This document shows, in pieces, positions 2,156 through 22,316 of a DNA stretch of 23,709 nt. This DNA comes from Irineochytrium annulatum (Eukaryota > Chytridiomycota > Chytridiomycetes > Chytridiales > Chytridiaceae). Numbering within the stretch: the first letter of the stretch is position 1; every line of letters starts with the position of its first letter. Made by a program: the position numbers and the translations under genes. The notes under the pieces were generated by a model. That model did no database searches. It had not been told where the DNA came from and saw only the letters and a program-made list of their open reading frames with translations. The stretch is taken from the NCBI GenBank assembly GCA_027600665.1, contig JADGJL010000364.1, positions 1-23,709 on the forward strand. The letters are read 5' to 3'.

Positions 2156-3402
2156 TTAGAACGAAGCAACATCAGCGCCATGCATACCTATTTCCCAGAC
2201 GCGAACGGTGCAATCTCCGCTACCAGAGTAGAGCTTGCCATCATAACCTGCGCATAGACATGCAACCGCTCCAAAATGGCCGCCGAGCGTCTTTGTCGGC
2301 TTCCCCGACTTCACATCCCATTCGACGATGGCCTTGTCATCGCCCGCCGAGTACAACCGCCCAGCAGCGATGCAAACGGACCGAACGCCGACGACCCCCG
2401 TCGAGTTGTTGGCCTCTCCGGATCCGCCGTGACCCCTCAACGTCCTCAGGCATTGACCCGACGACGTGTCCCACACCTTTACGGAACCATCCCGGGACGA
2501 CGAGTACAAGAGATCCCGGCCGAGGCAGAGCGAGAACACCCAATCTGTGTGCTCCTCCAACACGAGCAGACATCGCCCGTTAGCCATGTCCCATACCCTG
2601 ACCGTGTGGTCATTGCCGCCCGAGTACAGTCTTCCGCCCGCCGCGCACAGAGCCAACACCCATCTGTACATGCAAAAAGTCAGCCAACACTTATAAGTAA
2701 GCCGTTAGCAGGAGTCAAAAAACGCCCTGACCTCGTGTGTCCCGTTAAAATCCACTGCCTCCTCCCCGAGGTCGGATCCCATTCGTTGATCATCCGATCC
2801 GCGCCACCAGAGTACAGCCTCCCCTCCGGGGACACGCAGACGGCCGTGACGTAGCCGTCGTGACCCCTGATCGTCCGCGTCGGCGTGGCTGTCGCGATCG
2901 ACCACACGATGACGGACCCGTCCTCCGATGACGAGAACAACCGCGACCCGGAGGCGCAGAGGCAGGTGACGCCTTTCGAGTGGCCGTGGCCGAAGGTCCT
3001 CGACACCGTGCCGGACGCCAGATCCCACTCGGTGATGACGCCGTCCCTACCTCCGGCGTAGAGTTTGCCCTCGTTCACGCAGATGGAGGTGATCGGCCGC
3101 CTAGAGAAACGCGGTTTAGCTGTTAAATCCCAACGCGCTACTAAAGCACGCCACTAAATCACAATTACAAACCTGGGCTGCGTCTCGAGCACCTGGACAC
3201 ACTTCGGCGCATGCAGAAGGAGCTGTTGTTGCTGCTGAATCTGCTGTTGGACCTGCTGATGTGTTGCCGTCTGCTGCGGCTGGATAAGGTGTGAGGTGCC
3301 AGGTAGGGCCGAGCCGCTCGAGCCGGCCGCACCGGCGCGGGTGGAGTCGGACGGGCCCTCGGCCCCGGCGGCCCCGCTCATCCCTCCGACGGCGGTCGCC
3401 AT
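2156..3402 (-). CDS. Seven-blade WD40 repeat protein with Gln-rich N-terminus
   Basis: Three exons: 3402-3173, 3100-2732 and 2663-2156. The introns are 72 bp (3172-3101) and 68 bp (2731-2664), both GT..AG, and the joined frame gives 368 aa. Residues about 1-75 are low-complexity, Ala/Gly/Ser-rich and then Gln-rich (HQQVQQQIQQQQQ). From about residue 77 to the end there are seven WD40 blades with recurring GRLYSGG-x-D and V-x-x-WD signatures, such as TVRVWDMANG, SVKVWDTSSG and TVRVWEIG. The repeats fill the protein, so it is probably one closed propeller acting as a protein-interaction platform. The style is like the propellers of TRAF7 or Fbw7, but no RING or F-box is present, and orthology is not assigned. 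An in-frame stop precedes the ATG by about 17 codons. The stop codon is 31 bp upstream of the next gene's ATG. Confidence 0.85.
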
Positions 3403-4953: not shown

Positions 4954-6910
4954 ATGGAGCGGAGGGGTTTTGGTGATGGCGTGGAAGTCGAAAATGATGC
5001 CAACGGAATTGTCCAGTTTGTGTCAAAGATGATCCTGACAAGTGCTGTCCTTTCTTCACGCCTGCAGGCCGACGGCCGCCGGGGCCTGAAGAAGGGCTCC
5101 AACAACGATACTCCACCGGTACCCGCCGCCAATGCGACCACCTCGACCACTCCCCTTCACGATGCGACATCTGCCAACTGCTCCGGGATGGGAATTTCCA
5201 GAATAGACGACATCTCCTTCGCCGTCAATCTCTCACGCATGAACCTGAGCAACAACGATTTGTCCGGGGATGGAGAATGTCTGGAGGGATTGTTGCACTG
5301 TGTTAATCTCACTTGGCTGGATTTGAGCAAGAATCGGCTGGAGGAGCCGTTCAGAAATTTAGTGAACTTAGGGAAGCTTCAAGGTGTGTGCTTGTCATTT
5401 GATCGTAAGGGGTTGCGATGTTTAACCTCGCCGTCAGTGCTTAATCTGAGCCACAACAACATGAATCGGATATCGTTGCACGCGTCCAAGCTAACGAGCT
5501 TGAAGGCATTGATGCTGAACAACAACAGCATCCTTCGCATTGACAACATATCCTCTATTAAGAACTTGAACACGATTGGTAAGACTACCTTAATTAGTGG
5601 GAAATGAAAACACACTAACTTCCTCGCTCTCCAACAAAAAAGTCCTCTCCCATAACTCCATTACCGTCATCGAAAACATTTTCACCCTCCCTGCGCTCAC
5701 GAAGCTCTCACTCTCTCACAACCGCGTCCGCGTCATCCCCGACACCCTTGCCTCTTTATCCTCTTTACGTGAGCTCCGGCTCGCGCACAACCGCATTCTC
5801 AGCCTGCCGAGCCGGGCCATGTCCGGGCTTTCGGCGCTGGAGATTCTCGATTTGGGTCATAATTTGCTGACGGGGTGGGAGAGCGTGACGGCGCTGGAGG
5901 GGTGCCTGCATCTAGTTAACTTAAATCTGTTGGGGAATGGCGTTTGTGGGGTTGGAGAGAAGGGCGCGGAGAAAGGGAAGGACGAGAAGGGGGAATGGAA
6001 GAAAGAGAAGGGCGGGGAAGAGTACAGGGAGAAGGTGTTGGGTCTAGTCCCGACGTTAAGGGTTTTGGATGGGGATAGGTTTGACCCGAAATTCCTAGAA
6101 AGGAGGGAGAAGAGGAAGGGGGTCATGGAGAGGAAGAAGAGGATGGAGGAAAATCTCGCGAAGAAGGGGAAGACAACGCCGGCAGGGGATGGAGGTGCGA
6201 GCGGACCGGGGAGACAGGACGAGGCCAGAGAGCGAAGGCAACGGCCCGGAGCCGATGGAGAGGAAGACGGGGATGGAGGTGAAGTGGATAGGCCGAGGAA
6301 GCGGCCGAAGAGTGATAACGGCTGGGTAGTCCCGTCCGCCATCGGGGTTGAGGAATCAGCACGGGTCAGGGACGATGCGCCAAAGCCCGGACTGAAGTCT
6401 GCCAAAAAGAAGAAAGACGACGAGCTGAAGCCGACGACGAAACCTGGATTGAAGAAGGACGTCGCCCGGAAGTCGATCCTTTCACGAAAGAACCCTACCT
6501 CCTCCTCTGCCTCCACCATCGCCACGTCCACCGTCACCTCCGACTTCAAGCCTCTCTCAGCCCCCGCCCCACCGCCTTTCAAACCCAAACCGAAGGCGAC
6601 GTCCTTCTTATCCGCCGACGACACGAAGCCGCAGCCTTACTCTAAATCGCAGGCATCCCTCCTATCCGGCGAGGTTGTTCCCGACTCAACACTGGGGAAG
6701 CGGGAATCGTCGTCCCTCCTTGACGGCGACTCCCTAGAGATGGAGAAGAAGAGGCAGGCGAGGTCTGGCGTCGTCGCAATCATCGAGGCCAAGCAACCGA
6801 GGAGGGCCGTGACGACGACGACGGCGGCGAAGGTGAAGGTTGTGAAGACGGGAACGCCGGTTTTCGCGGCGGCGGGGTCCGGGGCCGTGAGCGTGGGGAA
6901 GTGGGATTGA
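4954..6910 (+). CDS. Leucine-rich-repeat protein with LRR cap and basic disordered tail
   Basis: Exons 4954-5383, 5438-5578 and 5643-6910 give 612 aa. The introns are 54 bp (5384-5437) and 64 bp (5579-5642, with CTAAC before the acceptor). Splicing restores perfect repeat spacing (KLQVLNLSHNNM; NTIVLSHNSI). Residues about 85-285 hold eight or nine LRRs of the L-x-x-L-x-L-x-x-N type, including WLDLSKNRL, KLSLSHNRV, RELRLAHNRI and ILDLGHNLL. A cap-like end follows (REKVLGLVPTLRVLDGDRFDP). Residues about 310-612 are Lys/Glu/Pro-rich and disordered, with basic clusters such as RPRKRPKS and SAKKKKDDE that could act as nuclear or nucleolar signals. Repeat order resembles a conserved plant/fungal LRR family of unknown function. 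No catalytic domain is seen. The upstream limit is uncertain, because the first 80 residues look atypical and an extra 5' exon could exist. Confidence 0.85.
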
Positions 6911-7996: not shown

Positions 7997-9429
7997 ATGC
8001 CAGCCATGAACGCGATCAGAGCGAGGGAGTACGGCCTCAGTGTCACCCGGGGCCGCTTCTGCCCGCAGCTCGCGCTCTCCGATATTATCAAGGCCAGGTT
8101 CTACTCCGTATCGCTGTCGGAGAACAAGGAGGTCGCGAGAGTGACCGCCGGGCCCGTAAATGACCTCGCCATCGATGGGACCGGCGAGAGATAGTAAGTA
8201 TTGCGGAAATTCATGCTGCAGTATCTTTCTTACCGTCTTAATGCAGCATGGTGGCCGGCTTTGCGAATTCGTCAATCAGGATTTATGACTTGGCCGACAC
8301 GGCGAAACCTTCCGCGATGTCGCGCTCCCTAGTAAAGTCCATTGCCGTGATCAAGAGGTGCAGCTTTCAATTTATTTATTTCCTGACGATATGAAGCAAG
8401 CGGGGCCACAAGTTCAGCGTGACGGGCGTTGGGTGGTATCCGTTCGACACAGGGATATTCACGTCTTCGTCGATGGACGGGACGGTGTGTGTCTGGGACA
8501 CGGCGTCGGTGACGGTATGCTTGAGTTGAACACTTTGTCCCCGTCTAACAGGGTCAGTGCGCACTGAAATTTGAGCTCGCCGGTAAAGTATACGCTCACG
8601 GCATGTCGCTGGCGTCCACGCAACGCTTTCTCGTGGCTGCGGCGACGGAGCATCAGGCCGTCGCTGTGTGTGATATGGGCTCCGGCGCGATTGTAGCGCG
8701 GCTTCAAGGTTTTAAGGCCATTACCTGCCACGTAAAGTAACTTTGGGCAGGCCATAAGACGGAGGTCTTAACGTTAGCCTGGTCGCCCGTCGACGAGCAC
8801 ACTCTAGTCTCCGGAAGGTACCATCTCAGGCAACCGTGTCATATTATAACGACTCTTTAGCGCCGATTCCACCATCCGAATTTGGGACATCCGCAAAGCC
8901 AACGCCTCGCTCCGCACCATCGACGTCCGCCAGGCGCCCAAATCCATGGTGAAGGCCGCGACGAATCGTAAGGACCTCCTGCGGACATCGCCCGTCAACG
9001 GCCTCTCTTTCACCTCCGACGGCCGGGCAATCGTTTCCTTGGCCTATGACGATCACGTCCAACTATGGGATCCGGCCACCGGACAGGCCATAAACGTGCG
9101 TTTTCTTTATCACCATCCTTCGCTAAGGAACTTGTGTGTGCGTCCAGACCACCCAGCCCATGATCGCCTCCAACCGTCACAACTCCTCCATCCGCTTCTA
9201 CGTCACCCCGACATCCCATTGCCGCCCGCCCCTTGCGTTCGTCCCCTCGGACTCCAGGATCGTCTGCTTCAACCTGCAGTCGGGTGAGGTCGTCTCGCGT
9301 CTGGGGTGCCATTGGGGCCGGGTGACGTGCGTGGGCGGTCGGGCGAGCGTGCAGGAGCTGTATTCGGGTGGTGTGGATAACGAGATCTTGTGCTGGGATC
9401 CGGAGGTGGCGGGTAGGGATGAGTTTTAA
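7997..9429 (+). CDS. ERCC8: ERCC8/CSA orthologue, WD40 substrate receptor for transcription-coupled repair
   Basis: Seven exons: 7997-8193, 8247-8357, 8397-8514, 8558-8708, 8751-8817, 8861-9095 and 9148-9429, giving about 386 aa (human CSA is 396). Introns are only about 39-53 bp. CSA landmarks in order: a short helical N-terminus, GERYMVAGF after splice 1, [20 protein letters not shown] (human QWYPHDTGMFTSSSFDKT), [54 protein letters not shown], and [17 protein letters not shown] near the C-terminus. CSA is the WD40 receptor of a DDB1-CUL4 ubiquitin ligase that acts at RNA polymerase II stalled on DNA damage; the yeast counterpart is Rad28. The intron 3 acceptor could instead be 8551, adding Gly-Gln. 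An alternative start is the Met at 8006. Orthology is secure from the ordered motif matches. Confidence 0.93.
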
Positions 9430-10775: not shown

Positions 10776-11942
10776 CTAGGTCGACCTCGCTGTAATCCAC
10801 TCGATGTAGTCGGTGATTATTCCCTCCTTGATTGTTGGTTCGTTGTGGACTGGAGTGCACTCCAGTCAGACAACACAGGAGCAAAGGGCAACAAAAAAAT
10901 AACTTGAAGTCACTCACGCTCGTGCTTTACGCCAGAAAACTCTTTAAATGTCTTATCCTTCGACCCCGATTGCCGATAGAATACCCTCCCGCCCTCCACG
11001 TCAACGAGTGTATCGTCCCGGCTGAAATACATCAGGTATGGACACTTGAAAGACGCGGCGCCGGCGATGCTATCTAGGAACTCGCGGCTAATAAAGATGT
11101 CCCTGCAGAGCCTCAGCGTGATAAGGTCATGCACAAGCGGGTCTTCCCTGTAAGAAACCAAAACTTCGTCGCTACTACAAAGGCCGTCCAGGCTCAGCAT
11201 ATTTGTGTGCGACAACCGCGGCATCACGTGCACGCCGAACAGTTTCGCTACAATGCGGACGGAGAATGACGTGGGTTTCGCGTCGCGGATCGGGGGCGCC
11301 TGGGAGATGACGCCGCGGAAGTTTTTGGAGCGGAGCTTGGAGGAGTGGTGGAGGGAGAACGCGAGCGCGAGGAGGCCGCCGAGTGAGTGGCCCATGACGA
11401 AAGTGGGGAGGTTTTCGGGGTAGGAAGGGTCGATCGGGATTGCGTCGAGGAGTAGGAGGTCCTCAAAGACTTTGTCAAAGATAGTAAAGGCCGGAGCGCC
11501 CGTCTTTGCCAGCGTCCTACAACTCAAGGAGTTAACGAGCCATTCAGACTTTCTGCCTACGTATATTTCAATAAACATTACCTTCCGTGTCCTCTGTAAT
11601 CCATACCCTTGACGAGAATTCCGGCCTCCGCAAACCGTTTGAAGACGTGATCGTAACGAAGGATATGCTCGCCGATGCCGTGGAGCGCCAGAACCGCCGC
11701 CTTGGGAATGCCGGTTGGCTACTCAGATCCGCAGAAATCAGTCCACGTGCGTAAATATGCCCTCGCACGACATCCACTGCGTACCTTCCAGACATTGTAA
11801 AAGATTTCGACGCCGTCAAGAGCCTGCAAACGATCATGATCAGATCATGCAGTACAAGGTTCAAGACAAATACCGTTAAGTACGCGCCTCCGGGGCTGTG
11901 GTCGTCCGGAAGAGCCCACACCCGTTTCTTCGACCTGGCCAT
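10776..11942 (-). CDS. Monoglyceride-lipase-type alpha/beta hydrolase
   Basis: Five exons on the minus strand: 11942-11874, 11823-11785, 11718-11582, 11516-10918 and 10849-10776. The introns are 50, 66, 65 and 68 bp. The product is 305 aa, the size of human and yeast monoglyceride lipases (MGLL, Yju3). Landmarks: ALDGVEIFYNVWKP, the HG oxyanion motif (VLALHGIGEH), MDYRGHGR, nucleophile elbow GHSLGG with Ser126, acid segment SRDDTLVD with Asp250 the likely catalytic acid, and KHELHNEP with His280. All triad residues are present. It should hydrolyse monoacylglycerols or related lipid esters, probably on lipid droplets or membranes; the exact substrate is inferred from family. No signal peptide is seen. 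The gene diverges from the chitin deacetylase gene, with 100 bp between start codons. The last intron ends inside a 20-bp palindrome. Confidence 0.92.
10848..10867. repeat. Perfect 20-bp palindrome spanning a 3' splice site
   Basis: GACTGGAGTGCACTCCAGTC equals its own reverse complement. On the lipase coding strand the last intron's acceptor falls inside it (ACTCCAG then exon TC), so 18 of its bases are intronic. It has no spacer, so it is more like a protein-binding or inserted palindrome than an RNA hairpin. Confidence 0.95.
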
Positions 11943-12042: not shown

Positions 12043-14066
12043 ATGGCGGATCACGCCGTCGGTGACGAGGAAAGGGCAGGGCTGTTGTATGGGGACGGAA
12101 TTGCGGTCAGAATGGGCGACAAGAACCGCGGCCGGTGGAGGGCCTGCTGCCGCGTTTCCGACTCCAGGCTCGCGACGGGACCGCTGGTGTGCCTGCTGAC
12201 GGCCCTGGTTGTTGGTGAGATGAGCTTTCCGCCTTCCGAACGCGTTCGATATGCCTGCGAACTGACGGAGGATGTCGTCAGTCTACTGGATGGCTCACGA
12301 GTCGATCCTCGATCTGCTCGTCAAGCCAAAGGGTGTTCGGGAGTTCTACAAGAGAGCAGGGTATCCAAGTGCGTCCGTTGTCGCGTCCTTGACAGTTCCG
12401 TTCACCTTCCGAGTCCTGACGCGTTGAAAACAGCACAAATCCTGCCTGGGTACCAATGCGACCCAGCAACCTGCCTGATATCCAAGAACTGCCATTGCCC
12501 GTCCCCTCTCCCGCCTGGCAACCTCCCCGTCTCCCAGACGCCGCAGTTCGTTCTCCTCACGTGGGACGACGCCGTGAATGTGGCGACCTTTCTCTCCTAC
12601 ACGTCCGCCACGGTTCCGCGCGTGAACCCGAACGGGTGCCCCATATCGACCACGTACTTTGTCTCGACGGATTGGACGAACTATCACGACGTGCAGATAT
12701 TGTTCGCGAACGGACAAGAGGTCGCGGACCACACGATGGAGCATGTCGCGCTGCCGGATCTAGCGCAGATTCAGGGGCAGAGGATGGCGGTGGAGGCGTT
12801 TGCGCGCGTAGGCGCTTGGAATATTCAGGGGTTCAGGGCGCCGTACTTGAATTGTAGGTTATTGCTGTGCTTTTATGTCTCTTTGTTATTTTACCTCATG
12901 ATGACTATGATAACTGGATTTATCCGTTAAATAAGTTAACATGTCCACCTTCGAGAGGATTTCGAGCCTGGGCTATCTCTACGATTCGAGCGTTAGTGTC
13001 AACCCGTCGTCGAATCCGTTGTTTCCTTGGACGTACGACCACGGCGTGCCCGTTACATGCAATACCGGCATCTGTGACACTAAATCAGTCTTCCCAGGTT
13101 TGTGCGGCTTTCATTTCATTGGAAGGCTGTAGTTTATCGAAACGATCGTTTGGTAACAGGGCTGTGGGAGGTCCCGATGTACACGATGAACAACAATCTC
13201 GGTATTGCCTCGGCGTTGATGGACCCAGGAGGAGACGTGAGTATCGTAGAATTTTGTCCGCGTTTAGTCAAATTTTCTCATGCTGCGAACGCCAGCACGT
13301 GACCCTCCTCGCTGCCTTCAAGCGGAATTTTCTCGACTACCACTACAATCAGAACCGTGCACCCTTTGGCATTTGGCTCCACGCCGCGTGGATACTGGAG
13401 GACCCCACGCGGATCGCGGGCGTCCTCCACCCGTTTATGGACTGGGTCAATGAGGTCACGAATAACAGTACGTACTTCGTCACGGCTTCTCAGGTGCGTA
13501 TTTCTTGCATGTATTATGCGTTGCTTGGCGCCCGTGCTTAAATTCCAGCCTTAGCTCATCGCGTGGATGCAAAACCCCGTCGGGATCGACGGGATTCGGA
13601 ATCATGCATCAACCTCTTGCAGCCCGCGACCACCAGTCATGCCCGGTCGCGAGACGCAGTGCGACGGGCTGGACAACAACGGAGGTTTGTAGGCCTGGAA
13701 TTCTATTTGAGAGTGGGCACTCATCAGCATACTTTCTTTCCACCGCAAGATGGCAACTTTGACGAGGGCCTGACAATCACGTGTAACACGGGCAAATACT
13801 ACTTCCAGACCTGCTACCCCTCCTGCCCGGTCTTCCAGCCGAATGAAACGGACCCGGTCCCTCTCACGACCAGATACGTCCCGATGCTGAAACCCACGTC
13901 GACGGCGTGCCTGCCGTCGCTGCCGGCAACCTCCGTGCACGCGAGCTCGTTGACGGCGGTCGCGTCGTCGTTTCCGACGGCCGCGATGTCGACGGCGTCA
14001 ATCACGAGTAAGGCCCCGGCGTCATCGAGCGCGGTGAAAGCGACAACGACTGCAAGGGCGGGCTAA
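12043..14066 (+). CDS. Chitin deacetylase (NodB-type polysaccharide deacetylase), membrane-anchored or secreted
   Basis: Six exons: 12043-12853, 12936-13097, 13160-13236, 13296-13493, 13555-13684 and 13750-14066, giving 564 aa. The introns are 59-82 bp. Residues about 46-60 form one hydrophobic segment (GPLVCLLTALVVGEM) after a basic stretch, which fits a signal anchor. A Cys-rich linker (YQCDPATCL; NCHCPSP) precedes the NodB domain. Metal and catalytic motifs are present: TWDDAVN (Asp175/Asp176), H-T-M-E-H (His230, His234), FRAPYLN (Arg265) and WLHAAW. After the domain come a second Cys-rich part and a Ser/Thr/Ala-rich C-terminus, probably O-glycosylated. The enzyme converts chitin to chitosan in the cell wall. 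The long first exon (residues 60-130) reads poorly and could hide an unrecognised intron. The deacetylase identity is secure; N-terminal topology is inferred. Confidence 0.92.
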
Positions 14067-14427
14067 ATCCCCAATGATGCAGCATTTTTAACAACAGTTA
14101 TTAAGAACTGCAGGCACATGAAAATAACAGAAAGCATTGGTGTCCAACATAAGGCGGCGACAAAGGGCAGCAACAATATTAGTGAACAAACACCCAACAT
14201 ACTGAGCTGCGGCGCATGCAGAGTAAACATGCTCTAACTACAAATGAAGATGTTGACCGGCAAGTTTGTCTGGATGAGGGTCGCTTATATGCCCGATGGA
14301 CCCCAGTGCGAGCATTGTCGTTGCTGGTCACCAGAGAGGGTGAGGTCGTCAATTCCAACAAGTTGCATTCGTCGCCAGACGTGCCCCTCTCAACGCCACC
14401 CGCGCGTCCAGCCGGCGCCACGCATCG
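14067..14427. other. Intergenic spacer between chitin deacetylase and EI24 genes
   Basis: The first 150 bp are AT-rich and likely hold the 3' end of the deacetylase transcript; no exact AATAAA is present. The remainder should contain the promoter and leader of the EI24 gene. Open frames here are short and unrecognised. Confidence 0.5.
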
Positions 14428-15800
14428 ATGTCGTCGCACAAGAAACCCCGATCGGCGCCCACTCGGCCCATTGCTCCGTCGTCTTCGTCCGGACCGGTGC
14501 GGACCGCTTCGCTGGCGGAGTCCGCCGTCCTCACGCTGGACAGCGCGTGGAACGGCCTGCGGGACGCTTTCGCCTGGCCGGCGGCATTAATTGTCATCTA
14601 CGGGTAGGTCTCAACGTCCAGCTTAATCGAAACGTAACGCGCAAGCGAATCAGCTCCAAAACCATCCAGACGGCGACCCTGAAATGCTTTCTCCTCAACG
14701 GCCTCATCTTCCTCGGCTCTATCCTTCTCTTCGACCATCTCCTCTCTCCCCTCGCCGCTCACCTTGCCTCCGCGGCCCTCAGCACAGGGGCCTCCTTCTC
14801 CGCATCCCCTTCTGCCGGCGTCGATGGCGACCCCGCGTCGTCGTTCCCGGAAACGCCGCCGAACGGCACGGACGACATTGGCGGGGCGGCGGCCTTTCTG
14901 TCCAGCGTCGGGTCGGCCCTCACGGCGCTGTACCACCTCTTGTGGGTGTACCCCGTATACCTCGTCAGCTTCGTCCTGAACTCGTATTGGTACCAGGCGA
15001 TCGCGGACAGGTCGTTTGCGATCCTGAGGGGCGAGAGGGTCACGCATCCGAGGACCTACGACAGGTATAATTGATTAAAGAGAAAAGACGAGCTTCGTTA
15101 CGGTTGACCCTTACACCGTGGTGGCCCAGGTTATTGAAGAGGATTGCGGACGAGTCTTATCGCGCGCTCTTGCTGTTTAACTACCTCGCGACCGCGGCCG
15201 CCATGTATTCCGTCCCCGTTGTCGGACCCTTCCTCTCCTTTGCGCTTTTCAACTGGATTGGGGCCTTCTTCTCGTTTGAGTACAAGTGGGCAAGCAAGGG
15301 TTGGACGCTCGAAAGGAAGTTGGAGTACTTCGAGGATCGTTGGGCCTACTTTGCGGGTTTCGGTGGGTGACTATTTTGAATGCACTCCATACGTGGAGTT
15401 AGGACTAAACTCCTCATTGCCTTTGAATAAAGGCCTCCCCTGCACGCTTTGCACCTTCTTCTTTCCGCAGTTTATTAACGCGGGACTGTTTGCTCTCATC
15501 TTCCCCGTTGTAAGTACCCGCCTTGTTTTCTCCTTTTCTCGTTCCCACAACCCGGTGCTCACCCTGGCCATGCCCGAACAGTACATTATCATGGCTACCC
15601 GGGCTACCCCCTTGCCCAAGAGTGCGTCGTCGGTCCGCATGACGCTGATCCCGCGGCGGCTGCCTTTGTTCTGGGCGACGCGCGTATTAAACGACGCGTG
15701 CATCAATGCGACGTGCGGGCGCGGGCGGAAGAAGGCTCGCGGACCGCCACCTGTTTCTGGGTCGGCGGCGCCGGGCGCGGCTGGGAAGAAGACGTCGTGA
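14428..15800 (+). CDS. EI24: EI24-family multi-pass membrane protein (PIG8/EI24 homologue)
   Basis: Five exons: 14428-14603, 14654-15064, 15130-15362, 15433-15509 and 15582-15800, giving 371 aa (human EI24 is 340). The introns are 50, 65, 70 and 72 bp. The first exon is short and begins MSSHKKPRSAPTRP. Family landmarks: LWVYPVYLVSFVLNSYWYQ followed by IADRSF (human [22 protein letters not shown]), a hydrophobic stretch ending FNWIGAFFSFEYKW, KGWTLERKLEYFEDRWAYFAGFGLP (human IERNWPYYFGFGLP) and FINAGLFALIFPVYI. Roughly five or six membrane segments are visible. An insertion of about 50 polar residues (Ser/Pro/Gly-rich) follows the second segment. EI24 proteins sit in the ER and act in autophagy and stress-linked growth control in animals; the role here is inferred. 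The C-terminus is basic (GRGRKKARG; AGKKTS). Confidence 0.9.
15384..15399 (+). repeat. Small hairpin inside EI24 intron 3
   Basis: ACTCCA-TACG-TGGAGT is a perfect 6-bp stem with a 4-base loop, 21 bp after the 5' splice site of intron 3 (15363-15432). It could affect splice-site spacing in the pre-mRNA, but a stem this short may be chance. Confidence 0.4.
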
Positions 15801-16735: not shown

Positions 16736-19700
16736 CTACGGCGAAGAATTAGCCACGCCCACCGACCCTCTATGAAGCCCGCGCCCGCGACCCGGCCGCG
16801 AGCATTTCCGACCCCCCTCGCCTATTCGCTCCAACCGGGCCGCAACAATTGGGACGTTTTCCTCACACGCCGGCATTGTTCCCTCGCAAAACCGAGACCA
16901 CGCCGACGCCGACGACGACGCCGCGCCTACTCCGCCCGCTTCCCGACAAAGCAAGGACCCAAGGAATGGGTCTAGCCTTGTCGCCTGGTTGACTACAACA
17001 AGTGTTCGGTTCCGCTGGTTAACGCGGGCGTCCGAGGCCAAGAACGGGTCCGAGTCACCGCGATCGAGGCCCGACATGCCACCCTCTACTAATAAGTCTG
17101 CGCCGTCGCTGGGGGCCACGGGATGCCATAAGACCATGAAGTCCGAAACGAATCCAGTGGGGCTTGTCCAATAGGGCCAGTTAGCAACCGTCACCTCTAA
17201 GGTAAAGCGTTAGCACACGAGCGTCGTTTTTAAGCAAAAATTCTAGAGCTGCACCTTTTGCCCCCGAGGATCCCATGATCCAGCCTAGGACGCCTCCTCG
17301 CGAATCTTGATACATTAATGACGACGGATCCGCTCCTGCTCGCTTCTCCGGAGGGTAGTGAGCCGTAACCCTAAGCAACGAGGACGGGCTAGAACCGGAG
17401 GGAAGGGACGAGGCCGCCGCGGTGGCGGCTGCGAAAGCCTTGTCGCCTTTCTGGTTATCCCGGACTCTGCAATGCATATACGTCAATACGAAAGGAAGGC
17501 AATCTCTTTCCAGAAAAAGGAACTCACAAGCTGCTTACGAACGACTCGACGCCGGCCTTGAAGTCAGCATAATCCCTACCCACGCCTCTTAGCACCTCCC
17601 TTAGGCCCCAATGGCCTAAGAACACCGCGGGCACATCGAACCCATCCGCGGCATTCCCGTCACCGAGCAGTCTACCGTACACCCTCTTCATACCGCCCCT
17701 CGCCGTGATCCGTTCGTGCCGCTTGCCGTCAATCGCTGTGCGCTCATAAACGGCAGCGACGATCAGCGGTACTGCTTCGTCATCCTTTACGGCCTTCTTG
17801 CCGACTGCCAGCCGACACCCGAGGACGTCGTCGACGTCGGCCACGCACCGATCCACGCGAAGACGGGGCGACGTGCGGATAAGGATGTGAAGATGCGCCG
17901 GGGGGTTGGCGGTTACAGGCAGACTAGTAAGCGAGTGGACAAACGAGATTTTCGATGACGTGCGGTTGCGACGGAGGGCGTCGTTCAGAAGACGGACGAA
18001 CGAATCTGCCGTCGATTTCACGGGCTCGGGCTTTGCAGCGGCGATGGGCGGCGTCTGGAGCACAAGGACGTCGAAGGTAGAGAAATGGTCGAAGAGTCCG
18101 GTTCGGTTCAAGTCAAGGATGCGTTGTGTAGAGACGTCGCCCATGTTAAAGGTCATCATTTTCAGACGCTCACCACCTGATAGATAACCTGTGTAAGCAG
18201 AGGTCCGAGGATGGACGGGCAAAAGGCAAGAACAAGCAAAAGGAACCAACCTTGCTCAACTTCGTATACCATCGGGATATGGCCCTCCGTAGACACCTCC
18301 CGTGCGCACGTAACCCTCCTCGCTAGCAACCGATCCTCGGCTAAGGCGCTACCGATCTGCTTCCGATAGGCCTTAGCGCCGTCCTTCACCTCCTCACAAC
18401 CAAACCCGTCCACGAGGCACTCGCCCAATGTCTCCGCCCTCGGCCTGTACCCGTTCCCCGGCGCGACCATTGGCGCCCACACATGCGACAGCACGCGGCC
18501 CGTCATCGTCGGCGGGTGGAAGACCTCCACAAGCGATGGCCGAACCTTGGCGACCTTCTCCATAACAACCCCGAGATCAGCGTCAAACACTCCGCCCACG
18601 ATCAACGGGCTTCCGAACCGCATCCTAACCCTCTCCAACACGTCGAGCAGAACCACCATCTCGCCCACCGCCTCATCACCGCCCACCCAGTCCACATTCA
18701 CGACCACGACCCTCGCCTTCCCGCCCCGCCTCGTGACGGTCCATACGCTTGGCGTCCTCACACCAACCCTCCCGACGCCCCTCCCAAGGTCCTCGACGCA
18801 AACGGCCTCCCAGTCCGCCATTCCGCGTCCCAGGACAATCCGCTCCGCGTTCCGCAAGCTCCCTATCACGCCGCGCATCTCGCACACGTCCGAGACGGCC
18901 CACCCGGCTTTTGGCTCGCCGAGCCCCGCGAGCGGCGGCGGTAGCGACGGCGCCACCAAGGCGTTCTGCAGCAGCACGAGCGACGACCGCGCGGCCAGGA
19001 ATGAGACGGCCTGGGGCTCGAGCGGAGCCCCCGTGATTCGGTGCGTGGCCGCCTCGTGTCGAAACGGGAGCGGCGACGACGGCGCAAAATCGTCCTTGCC
19101 CAGGAGGCCAAATAGGGAAGGCGCGGCCCCGCTGGACGACCTTGCGGCGCGATGCAGGGAGAGCGGCGGGGCGACATCGGACTTCCAGCGGAGGGAGGGC
19201 GTGTATCCGCAGGTGAAGGTCACGTTGAGGTTGTCGAGCATGCGGGCATTGCCGTGTGAGACGTTAAGGTGGAGGCGGAGCTCGCCCCAAAGGTCACGGG
19301 CGAGTGTGACGTTCACGCGGAGGGTTGAAGCCTCGTCCAGATTGGCGACGACGGAAGGCAGCGGGGCCGTCGCGTTCGAGTATGGGGAGCTCAGGTTCGC
19401 CGAGACATACTTGTAGGGCTCGCCAAGGGCGACGAGGGATGTCAGCAGGACCGTCTTGGGGCTGGGCTTGGGCGACTTCTTTGTTGGTTTCGGAAAATTC
19501 AGGGATCGGATGGTTGAGACCGGGACTGTAAAATGGAGCGTAGAGCCGGAGGTGCACCTATAGCATAATATCAACACAACATTAAGCGCCAGAAGGCAAA
19601 ATTCCATTGAACTGCCATACCTCTCAAAGTAAGTCAGAGTTTGATTCGCAACTTCCACCGTCTTTCCAAACGTAGCCTCCTTCTTACTACCAAAGATAGC

Positions 19701-21579
19701 CCAAAATTGCTCGTCCTCGTCCCCCGCATTCTCCGCAACCCCACCGGTCTTGCTGACCTTCTTCGCCTCGAGCTTCCCTAGCGACGCCATCATCGAGCCA
19801 ACCTCGCACACAACCGACCCCTTGCAGGTGGATCCGGCCTCCAGCACAGCGACGGTGGCATTATGAAGGAGCTCGTACGATACGTTCGGGAACACGCGGC
19901 ATGCCGAGCACAACGACGCGATCGATCTCAGCAGCGTGTCGGATGGTGCACGGTCGTCCCCGTCCCCGACATCGGCGTCATCGTCCAAGGTAAGCTGCGG
20001 GTGCAACGACGCCATGGTGAGCGCGACGTGGATGACGTCAAACACGGTCTCAACGTCGGGGCCCTGAACCTCCAGCGTCGGGATCGTGGTCGACTTTGAC
20101 CGGATCGAGACGTCGGCGTGCCAAGCCGGACACGTCATGTTGCGGAACGCCGCTAGCTCCACGACAAGGTTCTCCCCCAAGATGGCGTCGAACGTCGGCC
20201 ATGGGCTCGCCACGCCGCCGTCGACCGCCAAGAGGGATGAGCCGTTCATGACGCGGCTGTAGACCCGCCCGAAGACGGCCCAATCGATGGTGTCCAGAAG
20301 GTCTTCGCAAGCTCCTCCGCCCTCAACGAGCCGCATGCCGGCGCGGTCTGAGATCGGCAGCGACGCGACGGCGGCCTCGACGTCGACCGTCCGGCGAGCG
20401 CCGTCGCCGACGATCACGGCGAGGTCGTCCTGATGCCAGATGGGGGTCTGCGAGAGCGGCGTGAGGAGCGGGGCTGGGTTCGTGGCGAAGGCCGGGTCAA
20501 GGACGAGGTGGCGGACTGCGGTGCAGTGAGAAAGGGGGATCGGGGTGAAGACCAAAAGCCGCGTTGGCTCCTAATATACATATTTTAGTACTAGCGACAA
20601 ATACCCAATACAAAGACCAAGTACTAACAGACTCCAACTCCTCCTCGTCATCGCCTTCCGCGTTCCTGGCCTTCCAACCATCCACGATCCTCTCGACGCC
20701 ATCCCTGCACATCCTCCTGCACGATCTCACGCCTCCGCGCCCCCACCCGTTAAAAGCGTCCAACTTCTCCATCATCTCCCTATCCTCATCAACCGGTCCA
20801 TCCGTCCCATCAACATCCGAGATCTCGTCGACAACGTCCAAACACCCCCCGAAGTCGACCCAGAGCCTCCGTACCCTAGTGCGGGCGGGACCACATTTCC
20901 CAACCTCGACAGCAAGCGTCGGCGGGTCCCATGACGAGTTCATATGCGCCGTAAGAGCGCGCTGGAGGTGGCGGTGGAACTCGACCGGGTGGGCTAGCGG
21001 CGGCGGGAGGGAGTCGGCCGAGGTCGCGGACGCCGCGGCGACGATCGTGGCGAGGTCGGCGGGCGTCGTGGCGTTGAGGTCCCGCACGAGCCGGTCGAAG
21101 AGGGTATCGGCCCGGTAGGCGCCAGGGTGTTTCGCCGAGGCGAATGAAGTCGACGAGTATGTAGCGGAGGACGACGTTGGCGGCGGCACGAGCGTCAGTG
21201 CCGTTCTGAGCCTCGTGAAGGCCGGGATGGACCAAGCCGACCTGTCATCGTTCGCGACCAGCTGGTCCACGATCTTGACGATGTCCTTGAACGACGTCCA
21301 GGACTTCATGACGGCCATAGCCTTCCCTGCGGCTTCCGCCAAGTGCTTTCCGTAGCCCTCCTTCGCGTATTCCGGATCGACGGGGGTCAGGTCGATGACG
21401 ATCTGGTGGTTGGGGTGGAGCTGCTGACGATACTTCGCGAAGTAGGAAGGGCTCAAAGGCTGTTGCTGGGCGGTGGCCTGAACCGTCGCGGGCTGGTGGA
21501 AGGAGGCGATCACGGCCACGACCGCCACGAACTTGATCGCGCGGCCGATTAGGCGGCTGGGAGCCGAACGGGGCTCCAT
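16736..21579 (-). CDS. Large predicted secreted protein (1513 aa) with two degenerate EEP-like modules
   Basis: Six exons on the minus strand: 21579-20629, 20570-19621, 19557-18251, 18188-17528, 17466-17255 and 17196-16736. The introns are 58-63 bp. All phases agree and the frame closes after 1513 codons. The N-terminus (MEPRSAPSRLIGRAIKF then VAVVAVIASF) is a good signal peptide. Residues 40-630 are unrecognised and rich in potential N-glycosylation sites. Two C-terminal modules resemble the endonuclease/exonuclease/phosphatase fold. Module 1 (about 815-1000) has LVLLQN, VVVVNVDW and PLIVGGVFDADLG. Module 2 (about 1078-1390) has MMTFNMGD, DVLVLQTPP, AVFLGHWGL and YWTSPTGFVSDFMVLW. Active EEP enzymes carry LQE, GDFN and SDH at these places; here they read LQN/LQT, GVFD/GHWG and SDF. 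It is therefore probably a non-catalytic, extracellular pseudoenzyme; EEP assignment is inference from motif order. Intron 2 (19620-19558) is 63 bp and stop-free, so it could be retained. Confidence 0.75.
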
Positions 21580-21979: not shown

Positions 21980-22316
21980 ATGTCGTCCCAGCGCACCGCC
22001 GTTCAGCCTCTCACGCCTGTCAGCGCCGCCTTCGTCGTCGGCGGTCGGGACGTTGCCCGGGCCCAAGCTTCCGGCCCTTCATCCCGCAGCGAGGGCAGCC
22101 CTTCCGTCTCGCCCACCAGCGCCCCGTCCAACGGATCATCCTCCCCGTCGACGGGCTTTGGCGGGTTTGAGGCCGTTGACCGAGCGAGGACCATGAAGCT
22201 GGTATGTGTCAACGAATGTTATCTTAATGATGGAAAGTCTGATGAAGCTTGAGCAGTACGAGGACCACCCGCATGCTCTGACTGGGGAGGACTACGGCCA
22301 AGGATGGAACCGTTGA
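21980..22316 (+). CDS. N-terminal exons of a disordered, Ser/Pro-rich protein
   Basis: Exon 1 (21980-22201) encodes 74 residues starting MSSQRTAVQPLTP, followed by Ser/Pro/Gly-rich sequence ending VDRARTMKL. A 55-bp intron (22202-22256, GTATGT..GCAG) leads to exon 2, YEDHPHALTGEDYGQGWN, which meets a TGA at 22314-22316. A one-base shift opens a further coding-like frame (PLIPGRATGTERMGQNVGD) to about 22430. This exon set may therefore belong to the same gene as the ORF starting near 22490, with an unresolved splice or an indel. No domain recognised. Confidence 0.55.

Follow-up and report, generated by a model that had tools for sequence, protein, structure and literature searches.

The window analysed here, the whole 23,709 nucleotides of contig JADGJL010000364.1 (assembly GCA_027600665.1) from the chytrid Irineochytrium annulatum (Chytridiaceae), carries on its minus strand a gene, HK101_007415, whose predicted product is a secreted protein with two modules in its C-terminal half that resemble endonuclease/exonuclease/phosphatase (EEP) domains. 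All coordinates of the gene below refer to this strand. The coding region (16736..21579) runs from an ATG at 21579 to a stop codon at 16738-16736 and encodes 1513 residues in six exons (21579-20629, 20570-19621, 19557-18251, 18188-17528, 17466-17255, and 17196-16736). The five introns, of 58, 63, 62, 61, and 58 bases, all have GT-AG ends. This model, which is based on the splice pattern and the open reading frame, reproduces exactly the one proposed in a preliminary description made from the letters of the sequence, and the GenBank protein agrees with it over introns 1-3.

GenBank lists the product as a hypothetical protein of 1365 residues (HK101_007415; P0001), and both ends of this public model are probably wrong. 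Residues 1-61 correspond to 22012-22194, a doubtful extra exon upstream. Opposite that interval, an ATG-led frame opens on the plus strand at 21980, and one of the two is probably wrong. At the other end the GenBank protein stops at intron 4 with the residues VESFSPG. The end of exon 4 (17522-17538) has two donors, GTAAGC and GTGAGT, separated by 11 bases; as we read the sequence, the terminal SPG fits the upstream donor of the pair, and the six-exon model takes the downstream one. We prefer the ends of the six-exon model. Exons 5 and 6, which encode residues 1290-1513, are missing from the GenBank protein and less secure. By a codon table derived from exons 1-3, they have a score of 0.06, compared with 0.36 for exon 4, and each taken separately is far below exon 4. 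Their joint score is matched by one in 2000 dinucleotide simulations, and five in 2000 are free of stops; these odds are optimistic, since the splice sites were picked to hold the frame open. Exon 5 alone is weak (score matched by 116 simulations and 271 stop-free, out of 2000), and exon 6 alone is better (eight and 45, respectively).

The first 35 residues (21475..21579) form a predicted signal peptide, with a hydrophobic stretch at residues 10-28 followed by ATA before QQQ (the cleavage site was placed by eye). This stretch is the hydropathy maximum of the protein: 1.79, compared with 1.46 in the best 19-residue segment elsewhere. The mature part has 15 N-glycosylation sequons versus the 4.9 expected from shuffles, and none of 5000 shuffles reaches 15. 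Twelve of the 15 are N-terminal to module 1. Since the N-terminus is the most hydrophobic segment and the sequons are in excess, passage through the secretory pathway is supported as a prediction from hydropathy and sequon counts, in agreement with the signal peptide and abundant sequons of the preliminary description.

The N-terminal region that follows (residues 36-634; 19557..21474) contains 11 cysteines (12 with C635) and seven sequons. Profile searches find no family there above a curated cut-off, which accords with the earlier statement that the first 630 residues match nothing known to its author; a match to Acetyltransf_CG in this region was rejected as weak (E = 0.0048; 17.4 bits, where the cut-off is 30). 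Judged by eye, residues 635-760 (19179..19556) are a possible beta-rich domain with cysteines near both ends (C635 and C750), and residues 636-790 hold five sequons.

The C-terminal half comprises module 1 (residues 790-1069; 18252..19091) and module 2 (residues 1076-1395; 17093..18171), the latter split by introns 4 and 5. Template-free, single-sequence structure models were made for about half of module 1 and, in module 2, for exon 4 only (residues 1071-1289). The best PDB matches of both models are mostly EEP proteins, and EEP ranks first for both. Profile-profile alignment points the same way. Against an EEP profile in hhalign, module 1 scores 22.6 (0 of 300 shuffles as high) and module 2 scores 20.3 (4 of 300); four other segments of the protein score 8-14, and the reversed modules about 15. 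When a 280-residue frame is slid along the protein in 20 steps, the seven that start at residues 696-1056 reach 20-23, compared with 9-15 for the remaining 13. In module 1 the alignment sets GVFD opposite GDxN and N921 opposite the His of VNVH; in module 2 it sets LQT opposite LQE. Because the best model matches are mostly EEP and the profile-profile signal is found only over the modules, we consider an EEP-like fold tentatively supported, at the level of models and sequence comparison. The case also illustrates how single-sequence models can give a tentative placement to a protein on which sequence profiles are silent. Although both modules (17093-19091) resemble EEP domains, they do not resemble each other in sequence: Compared directly, the two score no higher than shuffled sequences, which gives no evidence that one was duplicated from the other. 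The modules may have arisen separately or be very old.

The EEP profile was built from 60 domains of the same genome and of bacteria. The selection of loci covered part of the EEP places listed, among them 20 chosen as more divergent. Of L001-L070, six (L009-L014) had been set aside in advance, two (L003 and L008) had a stop in the one frame translated, which left 62, and L017 and L066 were dropped as their translations have no GDxN and are probably from the wrong strand. The genome itself has 13 matches to the EEP family PF03372, L003 and L008 among them; 11 of the 13 are over the cut-off. Five of its EEP matches (C922, C237, C876, C563, and C1020) contain internal stop codons; these are possibly remains of retrotransposon endonucleases, or reflect introns.

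Searches for families and homologues are silent. Pfam reports no family for either module at E up to 10, NCBIfam and PHROGs report none for module 1 or exon 4 of module 2, and no match to PF03372 or related EEP families lies above a curated cut-off. A PDB sequence search at E up to 10 gives nothing for module 1, module 2, or P0001. The match of P0001 to phrog_7721 (E = 5.3) was rejected as weak. Protein searches with the full length, with part of module 2, and with module 1 return only the protein itself; in the full-length search, about 5.8 billion proteins were covered and the 7984 candidates sharing most words were scored. These searches seed on exact five-residue words, and by our own estimate relatives below ~40% identity could escape them. 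No paralog beyond the gene itself appears in its own genome, and no relative appears among viral contigs. The homologue searches rule out close relatives only. The possible undescribed fungal family suggested earlier gained no second member from the protein, own-genome, or viral-contig searches.

The catalytic motifs of EEP enzymes include LQE, with its Glu, GDxN, and SDH near the C-terminal end. In module 1 the Glu is lost, Q831-N832 (18963..18968) occupying the place of QE in the sequence and in the MAFFT alignment. GVFD (956-959; 18582..18593) stands at GDxN, in the same register by hhalign and MAFFT, with both the Asp and the Asn lost. The first-strand Asn is replaced by Arg according to MAFFT, or by His801 when its position is derived from LQN in the same way as in module 2. 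Before the central loop, where EEP enzymes have His or Tyr, HMMER, hhalign, hmmalign, and MAFFT all put N921 of NVDW (18696..18698); hmmalign aligned 14 residues in module 1 and a single one in module 2. Near the end of the module, G1059-H1060 in EGHIPMV (18279..18284) corresponds to the DH of SDHxPV, with the Asp lost and the His kept (MAFFT agrees).

In module 2 other residues are kept. The first-strand Asn is retained as N1084 in TFN (18145..18147; sequence and MAFFT), and T1115 of LQT (18052..18054; hhalign and MAFFT) stands in the place of the Glu, so neither module has the Glu of LQE. MAFFT aligns Y1217 in VAAVYER (17746..17748) with the Tyr of VNVYTPN in L001, an APE1-type EEP locus of the same genome. 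For SDH, the SDF at 1378-1380 (17138..17146) was proposed by eye in the preliminary description, in an exon absent from the GenBank protein; MAFFT prefers SDG (1390-1392), and the SDF register would keep Asp1379. For GDxN, the place proposed was GHWG (1261-1264; 17605..17616), and here too MAFFT differs, as weighed below.

The claim that all catalytic motifs are replaced thus goes too far. The strings on which it was built (LQN and LQT, NVDW, GVFD and GHWG, SDF) are all present in the sequence, the registers GVFD at GDxN and LQT at LQE are the same in hhalign, and the Glu is lost in both modules and GDxN in module 1 and probably module 2. However, His1060, Asn1084, and Tyr1217 are kept, and by the SDF register Asp1379 as well. 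Likewise the His before the central loop is lost as claimed, but the residue aligned there is N921 rather than D923.

We infer that HK101_007415 encodes an exported, N-glycosylated protein whose C-terminal half consists of two divergent EEP (DNase I-like) sandwiches, inactive and used as binding scaffolds; judging from models and sequence, we give this reading as a whole a probability of about 0.5. The earlier idea of a pseudoenzyme is likely on this sequence evidence, because the Glu is lost in both modules and GDxN in module 1. With module 2 probably having lost GDxN too, standard Mg-dependent phosphoester cleavage would not be expected of either module. The role of the modules would instead be that of binding scaffolds, extracellular or within the secretory pathway, where the old active-site cleft could offer a face for binding phosphate, nucleic acid, lipid headgroups, or protein, and the Cys-containing N-terminal half might anchor or pair the protein. 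A bolder version, which we hold to be somewhat unlikely, is an undescribed chytrid extracellular protein in which the two degenerate EEP sandwiches, each retaining a different part of the catalytic site, pair up to bind a ligand and are preceded by a glycosylated N-terminal half that contains cysteines and may have a new fold.

Several observations speak against inactive EEP scaffolds, and some of them concern activity. MAFFT sets a literal GDGN (1245-1248) at GDxN in module 2, which also keeps Asn1084 and Tyr1217, and module 1 keeps His1060; an active, divergent EEP enzyme might then persist in one module or in both, module 2 being the likeliest candidate, with GDGN serving as a true GDxN or the metal held by other residues. 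The distances of GDGN from the place of the Glu (130 residues) and from Tyr1217 (28) are inside the reference ranges (107-163 in 40 sequences and 15-60 in 22 sequences, respectively), but those of GHWG (146 and 44) are too, so spacing does not decide. In L001, 38 residues (counted by hand) separate the Tyr from the Gly of GDLN. We lean toward the GHWG register, and thus to a GDxN that module 2 has probably lost, because in the low-confidence model of exon 4, GHWG directly follows a strand at AVFL and GDGN comes after a helix. Together with the absence of the Glu from both modules, this makes an active enzyme unlikely in our view.

Other adverse observations concern the fold and the gene. Both structure models have low confidence (predicted local distance difference test scores of 36 and 43), and below rank 14 much of the Foldseek list of module 2 is taken up by non-EEP folds such as IF3 and methyltransferases. 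HMMER with the 60-domain profile does not report module 2 and scores module 1 at -2.2 bits, a value matched by 160 of 1000 shuffles; in this search the N-terminal segment outscores module 1. The hhalign probabilities are only a few percent and the aligned stretches short (50 columns in module 1 and 16 in module 2), and scores drop to 13 once the sliding frame starts after LQT, leaving the later part of module 2 without profile support. With Pfam also silent, the modules could belong to another alpha/beta fold and match the motifs by chance. We find this doubtful, given that two separate template-free models each rank EEP first, that the profile signal is confined to the modules, and that the motif order recurs twice. 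The tandem EEP-like folds proposed in the preliminary description are accordingly backed by the leading structural matches and by a modest profile-profile signal, but not by HMMER, Pfam, NCBIfam, or PHROGs, and the models are poor and partial in coverage. A gene that is decaying or wrongly modelled, an orphan evolving fast without constrained function, would fit with the lack of any relative in the searches made, the end of the GenBank protein at intron 4, and the fading of the codon signal toward the 3′ end; it is improbable for a frame of ~1500 codons that stays open over six exons with consistent short introns, has a codon score of 0.36 in exon 4 by a table from exons 1-3, and shows an excess of sequons.

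For a protein with inactive EEP scaffolds, a close comparison is the branch of the EEP (DNase I-like) superfamily with DNase I, TDP2, and nocturnin. The structures that best match module 1 belong to it, as do those that VIA ranks highest for exon 4 in module 2, and the order of the motif places is shared. The chytrid protein differs from this branch in the loss of the Glu from both modules and of GDxN from module 1 and probably module 2, in its tandem arrangement behind ~630 residues of no known family, and in having no profile match. LINE-1 endonuclease and synaptojanin 5-phosphatase domains, which also rank near the top of the Foldseek list for module 2, are active enzymes and are not known to be secreted. 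Nitrophorin of the Cimex type binds haem through a Cys thiolate. It resembles the proposed role of the chytrid protein as a secreted EEP-related fold that carries a ligand, and it accounts, with three chains, for half of the six top-ranked Foldseek rows of module 2. It differs in being a single domain with a haem ligand in insect saliva, and it is likened here by fold ranking. By analogy, it offers a precedent for a secreted binding module of EEP fold; a table in a review gives Cimex nitrophorin as a nitric oxide donor of the inositol phosphatase family (PMC4773796).

Among fungi, the pseudopeptidase Ecm14 has been proposed to act in the extracellular matrix (PMC7706225) and is thus similar as a fungal pseudoenzyme with a proposed extracellular role; in contrast to the chytrid protein, to which it is unrelated, it belongs to the M14 metallocarboxypeptidase family and is conserved in fungi. 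Literature searches that combined the EEP or DNase I-like fold with pseudoenzyme, degenerate, or noncatalytic sites found no paper. To our knowledge, secreted EEP-fold proteins with a seemingly lost active site are little described, the bed-bug nitrophorin being the one example known to us. If our reading is correct, a tandem of two EEP modules in an early-diverging fungus would mean that the fold has been reused as an extracellular scaffold.

Pfam was run on 19 other open frames of the window; 11 have no match, and none of the 19 is a recognised partner of this gene. The matches comprise WD40 repeats (2156-3078, minus strand), leucine-rich repeats (4954-6910, plus strand), a further WD40 match below the cut-off (8946-9287, plus strand), a serine aminopeptidase-type hydrolase (10910-11578, minus strand), and EI24, again below the cut-off (14244-15074, plus strand). 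There is also a polysaccharide deacetylase-like frame (12043-12930, plus strand; PF01522, 25.7 bits against a cut-off of 23.1), perhaps a chitin deacetylase.
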